NCBI RefSeq assembly: GCF_014202215.1
Contig: NZ_JACHGB010000007.1
Span: 186,001-250,000, forward strand
From: Quisquiliibacterium transsilvanicum
Lineage (GTDB): Bacteria > Pseudomonadota > Gammaproteobacteria > Burkholderiales > Burkholderiaceae_E
Reading direction: 5' to 3'
Length of the DNA stretch: 64,000 nt
The position numbers and the translations under genes were made by a program. Positions 47,555 through 54,358 of the stretch are shown here, one piece after another. The first letter of the stretch is position 1, and each line of letters begins with the position of its first letter. Below the pieces are notes generated by a model that had not been told where the DNA came from, made no database searches, and saw nothing but the letters and a program-made list of their open reading frames with translations.

Positions 47555-48670
47555 ATGTCTGTCGAATCGCTGTTCCGGCCGCTGAAGGTCGGTCCCTATG
47601 AGCTGTCGCACCGCGTGGTCATGGCGCCGCTGACGCGGATGCGCGCCACCGTCCCGGGCAATGTCGCCAATCCGCTGAACGCGCAGTACTACGCCCAGCG
47701 GGCCACGCCGGGCGGACTGATCATCGCCGAGGCATCGCAGGTGCTGCCCACCGGCCAGGGCGCGCCGGCCACCCCGGGCATCCACACGCCCGCGCAGGTG
47801 GAGGGCTGGAAGGGCGTGGCGCAGGCGATCCACGCCAGGGGCGGGCGCGTCTTCCTGCAGCTCTGGCACGTCGGGCGCATCTCCCATCCCTCGCACCAGC
47901 CCGGCGGCGAGCTCCCGATTGCGCCTTCGGCGATCGCCGCCAACGGCAAGGTGACCACCGCGCAGTCCAAGCGCGAGCCCTATCCCACGCCGCGGGCGCT
48001 GCGCACCGAGGAGATCTCCGGCATCGTCGAGGGCTATGCGCAGGCGGCGCGCAATGCGCTCGATGCCGGCTTCGACGGGGTGGAGATCCACTCGGCCAAC
48101 GGCTACCTGCTCGAGCAGTTCCTGCAGGCGCGCACCAACCAGCGCACCGACGCCTACGGCGGGTCGATCGGGAACCGCTGCCGGCTCAGCCTCGAAGTCA
48201 CCGAAGCGGTCGCCGCCGTCTGGGGCGCGGACCGGGTGGGCATCCGCCTGTCGCCGTTCGGCGTCGCCAACGACAGCGGCGAGGCCGAGCCCATGCCGCT
48301 CTACGGCCACCTGATCGGCGAGCTCGACCGGATGGGCCTGGCCTACCTGCACCTGATCGAGCCGCGCGCCAGCGGCGCGGGTCAGGGCGAGGTCGACCAC
48401 CAGGGCGTGCCCTCGGCGGCCGAACTGTTCCGGCCGGCCTGGCGGGGCGTGCTGATCGCCGCCGGCAACTTCCGCGGCGACAGCGCCGCCGAGGCCATCG
48501 AGCGCGGCCATGCCGACGCGATCGCCTTCGGCCGGCTGTTCATCTCCAACCCCGACCTGCCGGCGCGGCTGCGCGCAGGGGCCGAGCTCACGCCCTACGA
48601 CCGCGCCACCTTCTACGGCGGCGGACCCGAGGGCTACATCGACTACCCGGAGATGCAGCAGGCCGCATGA
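47555..48670 (+). CDS. old yellow enzyme family alkene reductase
   Basis: The product is 371 residues, starting at ATG 47555 after GAAGGAATGAGG. FMN-binding and active-site blocks of the OYE family are present: LWHVGRISHP at about 103, the H-S-A-N-G-Y-L-L-E-Q-F catalytic pair region (His-Asn) at about 181-191, TNQRTDAYGGSIGNRCRL and the C-terminal FGRLFISNPDLP. It is close to NemA-type N-ethylmaleimide reductase, reducing activated C=C bonds with NAD(P)H. The selenoprotein gene starts 37 bases downstream. Confidence 0.95.
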   Translation: MSVESLFRPLKVGPYELSHRVVMAPLTRMRATVPGNVANPLNAQYYAQRATPGGLIIAEASQVLPTGQGAPATPGIHTPAQVEGWKGVAQAIHARGGRVFLQLWHVGRISHPSHQPGGELPIAPSAIAANGKVTTAQSKREPYPTPRALRTEEISGIVEGYAQAARNALDAGFDGVEIHSANGYLLEQFLQARTNQRTDAYGGSIGNRCRLSLEVTEAVAAVWGADRVGIRLSPFGVANDSGEAEPMPLYGHLIGELDRMGLAYLHLIEPRASGAGQGEVDHQGVPSAAELFRPAWRGVLIAAGNFRGDSAAEAIERGHADAIAFGRLFISNPDLPARLRAGAELTPYDRATFYGGGPEGYIDYPEMQQAA

Positions 48671-48707
48671 AGCAGCGGACGCCGCACCCGACACTGGAGG
48701 CTGACCG

Positions 48708-49808
48708 ATGATCACTGTCCTGCACGAACAGCGCGAGACCGAGCTGCCGCGGGCACGCGCCCAGGCCGACGCACTCTGGGCCGACCGCGACGAGGTGGAG
48801 CTTGCCACCGGCTGGGCCTGGAAGCCCGAAGGCCTGTGCCGGGCCGACGCCTGCGTGCCGCTGCCCCGGGGCGCCGGAATCGAGCGCGACGGCATGCTCG
48901 ATCTCGCCGCGATGTGGCGCTTCATGGGCCACCCGGTCGTCCACGACGATGCCGGCGCCACCTGGGTCCTGGGCACCGGCGCCGGGCAGCGTGCCGAGGC
49001 GCTCGCCACGCTGGAGGCGCCGGATTTCGCGCTGCCCGACCTGGCGGGCAGCGTCCATCGGCTGTCGGAATACCGGGGCCGCAAGGTCTTCCTCGCCACC
49101 TGGGCTTCCTGGTGAGGGTGTCGCGCCGACCTGTCCGTGTGGCAGGCATTGCACGACGAACTCGAGGAGCTTGGCTTCACCGTCCTGGCCATTGCGATGG
49201 ACGGGGCCGAAGGCGCCCGGCCGTGGATCGAGGCGGCCGACCCGTCCTATCCCTGCCTGGTCGACAATGACCATCACGTCGCCGATCTCTACGGCCTGGT
49301 CAACGTGCCCCAGGCGGTGTGGATCGACGAGTCGGGCCGCATCGTCCGCGGACCGGAGACTGCCGGCGCCACCGACGGCTTCCGCCGGATGGACCGCAGC
49401 CGGTTTACGATGCCCGAGGAGGCGATCGAGGAGCGCAAGCGCGTCAGGGAGCGCTACCTGGAGGCGATCCGCGACTGGGCGCATGAGGGCGCGCGCAGCA
49501 GCCACCTGCCGGATCCCGCAGCGCTGGCGGCCAGCTTGAAGCCTGCGGACCCTGCGATCGCAGAGGCGCATGCGCGCTTTCGCCTCGGGCGGCACCTGGC
49601 GCGCCACGGGCGGGAGCAGGAGGCGCAGGCGCAGTTCGCGCTGGCGGTGCAGCTGCACCCGGACTCCTGGAACATCTGGCGCCAGACCGCGGGCAAGGAC
49701 GAGCGCGGGCTGGCCTCGGGCGAAGCCTTCTGGGCCCGGGTGGATGCGCTTGGCGACCGTCCCTACTATGCGCCGGTCGATACCGGCAAGACGCCCGGGC
49801 GGAGCTGA
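48708..49808 (+). CDS. selenocysteine-containing redoxin (ResA/TlpA-like), Sec at codon 49113-49115
   Basis: Read through the in-frame TGA, the product is 366 residues with selenocysteine at 136. Residues 1-100 form a leading domain (GLCRADACVPLPRG), and 103-260 are a thioredoxin-fold redoxin (APDFALPDLAGS, then W-A-S-W-U-G-C-R-A-D-L), followed by a TPR-like C-terminal part. Cys homologues carry W-A-S-W-C-G-C-R, so the TGA replaces the reactive Cys; the reading frame, codon use and family similarity continue beyond it. A good ribosome site (GGAGG) precedes ATG 48708. Redoxins with WAxxUGC are known to occur as selenoproteins. The alternative, a nonsense mutation, is less likely because the residue is the exact active-site position and a SECIS-like hairpin follows. 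Confidence 0.85.
49130..49146 (+). promoter_or_regulatory. bacterial SECIS-like hairpin
   Basis: Stem CCTG-CC pairs with GG-CAGG, with one unpaired T (49134) on the 5' side and an apical loop GTGT (49137-49140). The loop lies 22-25 bases after the TGA, inside the 16-37 range of bacterial SECIS elements, and the bulged U plus G/U in the loop are the SelB contact features known from E. coli fdhF. Confidence 0.7.
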
Positions 49809-49885
49809 CTCCGCCTGCGCACGCCGCGCGCCCGGCGCGGAGGGGCGAGGCGAACCCGGCCTGCGGCAGCCGCTGCGCCCCTCGC

Positions 49886-50749
49886 TTACATGCGCCGGCG
49901 CACCGGGTGCAGGTCGGGGAAGCTCGGCTCGCGCTTTTCCTGCTTCGCGCGGAATGCCTCGGCCATGTGCGCGCCCGAGAACATGCCGGTCTGCCAGGTG
50001 GCGATGTAGTCCAGGCCGTCGGCGATCGTGTGGTCGCGTGCGTAGTTGATCATCACCTTCGAACCGGCCACCGCCAGCGGCGCCTTCGACGCGATCTCGC
50101 GGGCCGTCGCGAGCACGTGCTCGAGCAGCGCCTCGTGCGTGTCGAAGACCTCGTTGACCAGGCCGATCTCCTTTGCCTTCTGGGCCGGCAGGCGGCGTCC
50201 GGTGTAGGCCATCTCCCGCACCCAGCCTTCCGGGATCAGCTTGCACAGCCGCGGGAAGGTGCCCACGTCGGCGGTCATGCCGATGTTGATCTCCTGGATG
50301 CAGAAGAAGGCGTCCGCGGTCGCATAGCGGATGTCGCAGGACGACACCAGGTCGACGCCGCCGCCGATGCAGGCGCCCTGGATCGCCGCCAGCACCGGCA
50401 TGCGCGCCTGGTCCAGACAGCTGAACGCGCCCTGCAGGTGATGCACGTGGCGGCGGAAGGACTCCATCGCGGTGTGCCGGTCATCCCCTTCGCCGTCAGG
50501 CGAGGTCACTCCGTCGAAGACCGACAGGTCCATTCCCGCCGAGAAGTGCCTGCCGGTCGAGGAGACCACGATGCAGCGCGCGCGGGCATGGTCGTCGATG
50601 TCGCGGACGATCTCCGGAAGCTCGTTCCAGAAGTCCCGGTTCATCGCGTTGAAGGCCTCGGGGCGGTTCAGACGGATGTGGGCGACGCCCTGGTCGAAGC
50701 TGACGTCGAAGCTCTTGTGGCTGGTGCTGGCTTGGGCGTTGGTGGTCAT
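49886..50749 (-). CDS. dienoyl-CoA isomerase-like crotonase
   Basis: The product is 287 residues from ATG 50749, which follows GAGGAACCC. Crotonase blocks are STGRHFSAGMDLSVF and AAIQGACIGGGVDLVSSCDI. The segment QEINIGMTADVGTFPRL has the Glu and Asp pair typical of delta(3,5)-delta(2,4)-dienoyl-CoA isomerase (ECH1), rather than the two Glu of hydratases. It therefore probably moves double bonds in the oxidation of polyunsaturated or odd-position acyl chains. Confidence 0.85.
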   Translation of the reverse strand: MTTNAQASTSHKSFDVSFDQGVAHIRLNRPEAFNAMNRDFWNELPEIVRDIDDHARARCIVVSSTGRHFSAGMDLSVFDGVTSPDGEGDDRHTAMESFRRHVHHLQGAFSCLDQARMPVLAAIQGACIGGGVDLVSSCDIRYATADAFFCIQEINIGMTADVGTFPRLCKLIPEGWVREMAYTGRRLPAQKAKEIGLVNEVFDTHEALLEHVLATAREIASKAPLAVAGSKVMINYARDHTIADGLDYIATWQTGMFSGAHMAEAFRAKQEKREPSFPDLHPVRRRM

Positions 50750-52747: not shown

Positions 52748-54358
52748 ATGAGCTCCCCCAAGGAAATCGAACTCAAGTTCCTCGTGCCCGCTGCCGCGCG
52801 CGCGGCTGTGGCGGCCGAGATGGCGCGCGGCTCGGCCACGCTGGAGCGGCGCACGCTGGCGGCGAGCTACCTGGACACCCGCGATCGCCGGCTGGCCCGC
52901 GCTGGCATCGCCTGGCGCCTGCGCCGCGAAGGCCGGCGCTGGATCCAGGCGCTGAAGGCCGGCGGCGCCAACGCGCTGGAGCGCTTCGAGCACGAGGTGA
53001 TCCGGCCGGTTGGCACCCACGATCCGCTCGAGCACGCCGGCACCAAGGTGGGCGACCGGCTGCTGGTGCTGCTCGAGCGCGCGCGCGCCGACGGCGTCGA
53101 GGTGGAGGTGCGCTTCCGCACCGAGGTGCGGCGCACCGCGCGCCGGGTGCGCACCCGGGGTGCGGTGGTCGAGATTGCGTTCGACGAAGGCCGGCTGTTG
53201 TCGGGCGATGCCAGGCTGCGGATCCGCGAAGTGGAGTTCGAGCTGGTGTCCGGCTCCGCGGTGGCGATGCTGGCGCTGGCCGATCGCTGGCGCAAGCGCT
53301 TCGGGCTGATCCACGATCCGCGCAGCAAGGCCGACCGCGGCGATCGTCTGGCGCAGGGCGAGCCCCATCCTCCGCTGCGCAAGGCGGCGCAGCCCGACTA
53401 CCGGCAGGACGCGGACGCGCTGGGCGCCTTCGGCGCAGTGCTCGACGAATGCCTCGCGCAGATCAACCGCAATGCCATCGGTCTGATCGAAGGCGACCCC
53501 GCGCTGCGCGTCGACCACGTGCACCAGTTGCGCGTCGGCATCCGCCGACTGCGCAGCGCGCTGCGCAGTTTCGACGGCTGGGTGCCGATGCCGCCGGCGG
53601 CGCTGGTCGACGAGCTGCGCGCGCTGTTCGCCGAGCTGGGCCGGTCGCGCGACAGCGACGTGCTCGATACCGGCGTGGTTGCCGAACTGGCCAAGGTGGG
53701 GGCGCCGCCGCTGGCGATGCCGGCCGGGGCCGCCGGGCCCGACCCTGCCGAGGCGCTGCGTTCTCAGCGCACGCAGGCGCTGCTGCTGGCGCTGATCGCC
53801 TGGCGCGCGGGCCTGGCCGAGCTGCCGCCCGCTGCGGCTGCCGGGGCGCGGCCCGATGAGGCGACGCTCCAGGAGGGCGGTGACGATGGCGAGGCCGAGG
53901 CCGAGGCCGGATCCGAGGGGGAGGCCGAGGCCCCGGAAGCCGCCGCCGAGGGCCCGCCGGATGTGCAACAGTTCCGCCGGGGCGTGGAGCGCCGGCTGCG
54001 CCGCTGGCATCGGCGCATCGCCGCCGACTGGAAGGCCTTCGACACGCTGGAGGAGGAGGCGCTGCACGCGCTGCGCAAGCGCATCAAGCGCCAGCGCTAT
54101 GCGGTGGAGTTCTTCGCGCCGGTGCTGCGGCGCCGTTCAGTCGAGCAGTACCTGAAGCCGCTGGCCGACGTGCAGGAGCGGATGGGCGAGCTCAACGACC
54201 TCTTCGTTGCGCGCAGCCGCTACCAGGAACTGCTCGCGGCGGACCCAGCCGCATGGTTCGCGCTCGGCTGGCTGGCGGCACGCATCGCCGAGCTGCGCGC
54301 GCTTGCCAGGCCCGAGCTCGGGCGGCTGGCGAAGGCGTCACCGCCGGTGGCCCGATAG
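52748..54358 (+). CDS. CYTH-CHAD domain protein (inorganic triphosphatase type)
   Basis: The product is 536 residues. The CYTH domain (about 3-200) starts with EIELKFLVP, the E-x-E-x-K metal-binding signature; the CHAD domain (about 215-530) has VHQLRVGIRRLRSALR and later ALHALRKRIKRQRYAVEFF, with basic residues that bind polyphosphate. Homologues cleave tripolyphosphate and localise to polyphosphate granules. An acidic Glu/Gly/Ala insertion at about 375-405 interrupts the CHAD domain. Confidence 0.92.
   Translation: MSSPKEIELKFLVPAAARAAVAAEMARGSATLERRTLAASYLDTRDRRLARAGIAWRLRREGRRWIQALKAGGANALERFEHEVIRPVGTHDPLEHAGTKVGDRLLVLLERARADGVEVEVRFRTEVRRTARRVRTRGAVVEIAFDEGRLLSGDARLRIREVEFELVSGSAVAMLALADRWRKRFGLIHDPRSKADRGDRLAQGEPHPPLRKAAQPDYRQDADALGAFGAVLDECLAQINRNAIGLIEGDPALRVDHVHQLRVGIRRLRSALRSFDGWVPMPPAALVDELRALFAELGRSRDSDVLDTGVVAELAKVGAPPLAMPAGAAGPDPAEALRSQRTQALLLALIAWRAGLAELPPAAAAGARPDEATLQEGGDDGEAEAEAGSEGEAEAPEAAAEGPPDVQQFRRGVERRLRRWHRRIAADWKAFDTLEEEALHALRKRIKRQRYAVEFFAPVLRRRSVEQYLKPLADVQERMGELNDLFVARSRYQELLAADPAAWFALGWLAARIAELRALARPELGRLAKASPPVAR

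Follow-up and report, generated by a model that had tools for sequence, protein, structure and literature searches.

Classical ResA and TlpA proteins have a CxxC active site and carry an export signal or a membrane anchor. Redoxins with a UGC motif have been catalogued as predicted selenoproteins. The available passages of a 2008 study (PLoS Genet; PMC2398784) tabulate 'Prx-like (UGC-containing)' proteins under pfam00578 with the motif UGC, and count 46 selenoprotein sequences in 15 samples next to 855 Cys homologues. Those of two other publications list a 'UGC-containing Prx-like protein' (PMC9312934) and a 'UGC-containing TlpA disulfide reductase family protein' (PMC13188914, of 2026). In NCBIfam, the equivalog model NF041054, WAxxUGC_long, represents the ResA-like WAxxUGC motif-containing protein. 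The motif name WAxxUGC did not occur in the literature searched, six family terms sought in PMC12013277 gave no hit, and no enzymatic test of a UGC redoxin was found in the literature passages searched.

We analysed a gene of this kind in a 64,000-nucleotide stretch of the Quisquiliibacterium transsilvanicum genome (contig NZ_JACHGB010000007.1, positions 186,001 to 250,000), hereafter called the window. A first-pass annotation made from the letters of the window had proposed a selenoprotein with a TGA at the active-site Cys of a redoxin, noting that WAxxUGC redoxins can be selenoproteins. The locus is less novel than the annotation implied, since this kind of protein was already listed as a selenoprotein; the gene adds one more case to a type of predicted selenoprotein that the catalogues contain, and is not novel. 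The observation itself, a redoxin frame interrupted by TGA and followed by a hairpin, was confirmed. The product is very probably a redoxin with the TlpA/ResA fold, 366 residues long, with selenocysteine (Sec) 136 as the predicted attacking residue. The features of the locus are collected in the table. If the TGA is read as a stop, a clear selenoprotein gene is split into two pieces.

Features of the redoxin locus, with positions given in the window
Feature	Position	Strand	Remarks
Predicted redoxin selenoprotein gene	48708..49808	+	366 residues, with TGA136 as Sec; the terminal TGA, 49806-49808, is taken as an ordinary stop
TGA codon for predicted Sec136	49113..49115	+	In the place of the N-terminal Cys in WCxxC of ResA-type proteins
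Cys138 of the U-G-C motif	49119..49121	+	Invariant in 41/41 aligned sequences; probable resolving thiol
Cys44 and Cys49 in TGWxxKPEGxCRGxxCVPLP	48837..48854	+	Each invariant in 41/41 aligned sequences; second dithiol
AhpC-TSA/redoxin domain, residues 103-213	49014..49346	+	PF00578, 71.8 bits (cut-off 26)
Weak TPR-like stretch, residues about 288-327	49569..49688	+	Pfam score under cut-off
Candidate bacterial SECIS hairpin	49130..49146	+	17 nt, CCUGUC-CGUGU-GGCAGG; 6-bp stem, CGUGU loop

As the first-pass annotation had stated, the two pieces share frame and strand and are parted only by the TGA at 49113-49115, the sole interruption of the frame 48708-49808 (+). The read-through product contains W-A-S-W-U-G-C-R at this TGA, and the genes of the TGA-type relatives end at a similar position with TGA, TAG or TAA as the stop. 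Each arm alone matches NF041054, the upstream one over model positions 8-115 (99 bits) and the downstream one over positions 117-316 (180.7 bits). The match is thus contiguous across the TGA, with both arms in one curated family. With U entered as C, the joined protein covers positions 8-316 of 354, motif W-A-S-W-U-G-C included, and its score of 300.9 bits is barely above the cut-off of 300; a six-frame search with the stop left in place gave 294.4 bits, below that cut-off.

Residues about 97-220 match ResA/TlpA/DsbE-like structures by sequence. In three alignments, U136 falls on the first Cys of the ResA-type WCxxC, and Cys138 on the second, one residue closer. The active site is one residue shorter than that of ResA/TlpA, with UxC instead of CxxC; the motif is thus UxC and not UxxC. 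The protein further differs from ResA/TlpA by an additional N-terminal region that contains Cys44 and Cys49, and by an additional C-terminal region. Unlike ResA/TlpA, it has no export signal or membrane segment detectable by hydropathy (highest 19-residue mean 0.85, at residue 152), and on this basis it is probably cytosolic. By their description, the published UGC Prx-like/TlpA selenoproteins have in common with it a pfam00578 or cd02966 domain, the UGC motif and the existence of Cys homologues; NF041054 may cover only part of that published group. In a protein alignment of 41 rows, Sec and Cys forms together, Cys44, Cys49, W132-A-S-W135, Sec/Cys136, Gly137 and Cys138 are invariant, and all 41 sequences match NF041054 at E 1e-5 or better.

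Taken alone, in this single sequence, the frame and hairpin are a weak argument, no better than chance. The G+C content of the window is 71% and long open frames are frequent; 53 TGAs, the one at 49113 included, have at least 100 open codons on either side. Hairpins of SECIS geometry were found at 837 of the 1120 TGAs on both strands of the window, so that geometry is a weak test; at 289 of them the hairpin reaches -6.6 kcal/mol or better, and at 215 it reaches -7.5 or better. The case is carried by the active-site motif and by the comparison with relatives.

Homologous loci were collected by phmmer at E 1e-20. Of 80 loci, 79 span the site (43 TGC, 32 TGA and 4 TGT); one contig, L115, does not cover it, and L032-L049 and L118 were left out before counting as they did not reach that threshold. 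After removal of six duplicates, 73 distinct loci remained, the window included, with TGA at the site in 26, TGC or TGT in 47, and no other codon. These numbers are not a frequency, because the contig scan included the pattern TWASWCGC in Cys codons and is biased to Cys genes. In the search of the family genomes, which is free of this bias, full-length homologues were present in 12 of 74 genomes (the window's included), all 12 with TGA; the 11 others are 59-71% identical to the window's protein. When 369 genomes were drawn evenly from the class and the five best first-look candidates scored per genome, NF041054 was matched at E 1e-40 or better in three, one of which is the source genome of the window. 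A search of plasmids gave no match at E 1e-20. Two contigs, L052 and L115, belong to a metagenome-assembled genome (MAG) titled Bordetella parapertussis; the redoxin stretch of L052 is shared with a genome of the window's family, G053, so the title is possibly misassigned.

In the alignment with Cys homologues, the Cys of all 47 Cys loci falls exactly at the TGA position and not elsewhere, as expected from the earlier proposal that the TGA replaces the active-site Cys. The comparison shows the TGA to be the codon of a conserved active-site position that is otherwise occupied by Cys.

The hairpin starts 14 nt past the TGA, and its loop 20 nt past it. The available passages of PMC13188914 set the limits of bacterial SECIS elements at a stem of 4-16 bp, a loop of 3-9 nt with a G within its first two bases and located 16-37 nt from the UGA, and a folding energy no higher than -7.5 kcal/mol. 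The geometry of the candidate is within these published limits, with its 6-bp stem and 5-nt loop with G as the second base. Its energy is -6.6 kcal/mol for the 17-nt hairpin alone, short of the -7.5 limit in those passages; the flanks are needed to pass it, with -9.8 for the hairpin with 8-nt flanks and -16.4 for 45 nt. The best 45-nt folds do not preserve the hairpin in all TGA genes, as those of L021, L066 and L092 prefer other pairings. Rfam gave three weak matches in 48600-49900, none of them at the hairpin.

The sequence YTGYCCGTGTGGCAG is present in 26/26 TGA genes at a fixed offset, 18 bases beyond the first base of the TGA, versus 1/47 Cys genes. Among 22 distinct TGA-type 60-mers, that of the window included, all 22 preserve the five inner stem pairs and have CGUGU as the loop; the outermost pair can form in 11. 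The inner pairs show no covariation, only one-sided changes from C-G to U-G. In the Cys genes, the five inner pairs are intact in 9/47, and in one of the six nearest. The coordinates and distance of the hairpin proposed in the first-pass annotation held, and the element is kept together with the TGA, but the 'bulged U' did not: when the fold of the 17-mer is predicted, this base is paired with a G, and 12 of the 22 distinct TGA-type sequences have a C in its place.

Synonymous conservation was profiled in 24 of the 26 TGA genes and 42 of the 47 Cys genes. Among the 24 TGA representatives, the most conserved 8-codon segment starts at codon 7 after the TGA (0.84; median 0.55); the best segments of the Cys genes are elsewhere, at up to 0.90. 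The same synonymous codon is used in all comparable TGA-gene pairs at codons 7 (132/132), 8 (276/276) and 10 (276/276), versus 86/232 and 120/195 Cys-gene pairs at codons 7 and 8. Full identity of a single column does not stand out, since of the 10 fully identical codon columns among 210 in the TGA genes, three are inside the hairpin and seven are elsewhere. By comparison of the two gene sets, the candidate hairpin is shown to be kept at the nucleotide level in TGA genes and, with one exception, not in Cys genes. The gene offers a compact, testable SECIS.

The first-pass annotation had set a search for the Sec machinery as a test, and the machinery is there. In the source genome (4.26 Mb in 15 contigs, 99% complete), selA, selB and selD score above their curated cut-offs (570, 357 and 436 bits, for cut-offs of 268, 242 and 125, respectively). 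A tRNA-Sec with anticodon TCA is located on the selA contig, about 210 bases past the end of the selA frame; another hit to RF01852 above the cut-off turned out to be a tRNA-Ser. Within the family, selA exceeds the cut-off in 12/12 genomes with the full-length redoxin gene versus 24/62 of the others (Fisher p 5.7e-5, uncorrected for kinship). In one genus of 12 genomes, g15, seven have both the gene and selA and five have neither. In the window's genus, selA is present in 5/5 genomes with the gene and in 1/5 without it, several of the latter being incomplete.

We extended the selA test to 45 chosen loci (14 TGA, and 31 of the 47 Cys) in 43 genomes, as one locus dropped out and two loci are in one genome. 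Ten of the 14 further TGA genomes have selA over the cut-off. The other four, L055, L056, L066 and L067, are all MAGs whose completeness is not given. In L055, the C-terminal half of SelB is matched right next to the tRNA-Sec, so that selA was probably lost in assembly. In L056, L066 and L067, with 150 first-look candidates per genome, neither selA nor SelB was found over the cut-off, nor a tRNA-Sec at E 1e-8; no more than weak selA-like matches occur in L066 and L067. Among the Cys genomes, selA is present in 8 of the 29 tested, three Myxococcus-type ones among them, and therefore the Cys forms are not confined to machinery-free genomes.

A tree was built from 71 of the 73 loci (26 Sec and 45 Cys), with Sec entered as X and counted as a gap, and with a midpoint root. 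All Sec genes fall, together with six Cys genes, into a single supported group of 32, and four changes between Sec and Cys are needed. Most simply, Sec was apparently gained once and apparently reverted to Cys three times, a direction that we infer. The returns concern L071, which is a long branch, L072, and a weakly supported group (88/21) composed of Myxococcaceae and Pseudorhodoferax. The hairpin was mostly lost in these returns. The Myxococcus-type loci L058, L059 and L060 have the Cys form despite the presence of selA and are nested among mostly burkholderialean Sec forms. Their hairpin is eroded, as if Sec had been abandoned after transfer.

Other explanations of the interrupted frame have to be weighed against Sec insertion. 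The TGA might have arisen by nonsense mutation of a Cys redoxin gene, or be a sequencing error, with the downstream frame as a relic. A Cys codon is one base away from TGA and Cys homologues do exist, but 25 further distinct loci, spread over several proteobacterial groups and SAR324, have the identical TGA, and it is accompanied by the hairpin throughout. Moreover, eight pairwise comparisons with the window's gene gave similar values on the two sides of the TGA (dN 0.21-0.43 and dS 0.62-1.61 downstream, 0.19-0.35 and 0.56-1.12 upstream), which indicates that the downstream part evolves as protein. The degraded downstream frames that the first-pass annotation had named as damaging to its proposal are thus not seen in the relatives, and a pseudogene or an error is extremely improbable.

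Alternatively, the UGA might be read through by a near-cognate tRNA, as Trp or Cys, without SelB and Sec, or the two pieces might be translated separately. GTG 49137 is a possible start for a downstream piece of 223 residues, and the three MAGs with TGA copies and no detected Sec genes would fit read-through of another kind. However, a start at 49137 would omit the active-site motif, all 47 non-TGA loci have Cys at the site, and within the family the presence of selA follows that of the gene. We consider these possibilities very improbable. None of the three results that the first-pass annotation had listed as contrary to it was found, and its reading as a selenoprotein is supported.

For the selenoprotein, the following mechanism can be proposed. 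SelB carrying Sec-tRNA(UCA) would bind the hairpin and insert Sec at UGA 49113. The selenolate of Sec136 would attack a disulfide or a peroxide, and Cys138 would resolve the product to a selenenylsulfide, making the motif a UxC variant of CxxC. Subsequent reduction might be performed by a thiol system, perhaps, as a guess, via the invariant Cys44/Cys49 pair. Regarding other users of the Sec machinery, TIGR01553, the one model used for Sec formate dehydrogenase, gave seven matches in the source genome, all of them below the cut-off and free of internal stops. Among 12 AhpC-TSA matches in that genome, the redoxin gene is the only one with an internal TGA, and the other 11 have no internal stop. 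Together with the concordance of the gene and selA in 12/12 genomes of one genus, these data might suggest that the UGC redoxin is a main, perhaps the only, client of the Sec machinery in this genome and its relatives. That it would be so and also form a cytosolic two-dithiol relay from Cys44/Cys49 to Sec136/Cys138 is a speculative combination that we regard as unlikely.

Lastly, we surveyed the gene neighbourhoods. No conserved partner gene is common to the Sec genes, and the largest clusters found exclusively in their flanks comprise four loci; the Nocardioides-type Cys genes have neighbours in common, in up to 14 loci. Some neighbours will have been missed, because the flanks from the family genomes extended for only about 1.5 kb and any ORF that overlapped a longer one was removed. 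An enoyl-CoA hydratase gene (PF00378; 49886-50752, -) is convergent with the redoxin gene in the window. Such genes occur near four other Sec loci and three Cys loci at varying distances and on varying strands, and we rejected them as partners. A gene for an NADH:flavin oxidoreductase (PF00724; 47549-48670, +) ends 37 bases upstream of the redoxin gene, and given this short gap and the shared strand the two could be co-transcribed. Further downstream, the protein encoded at 52751-54358 (+) of the window combines a CYTH and a CHAD domain.
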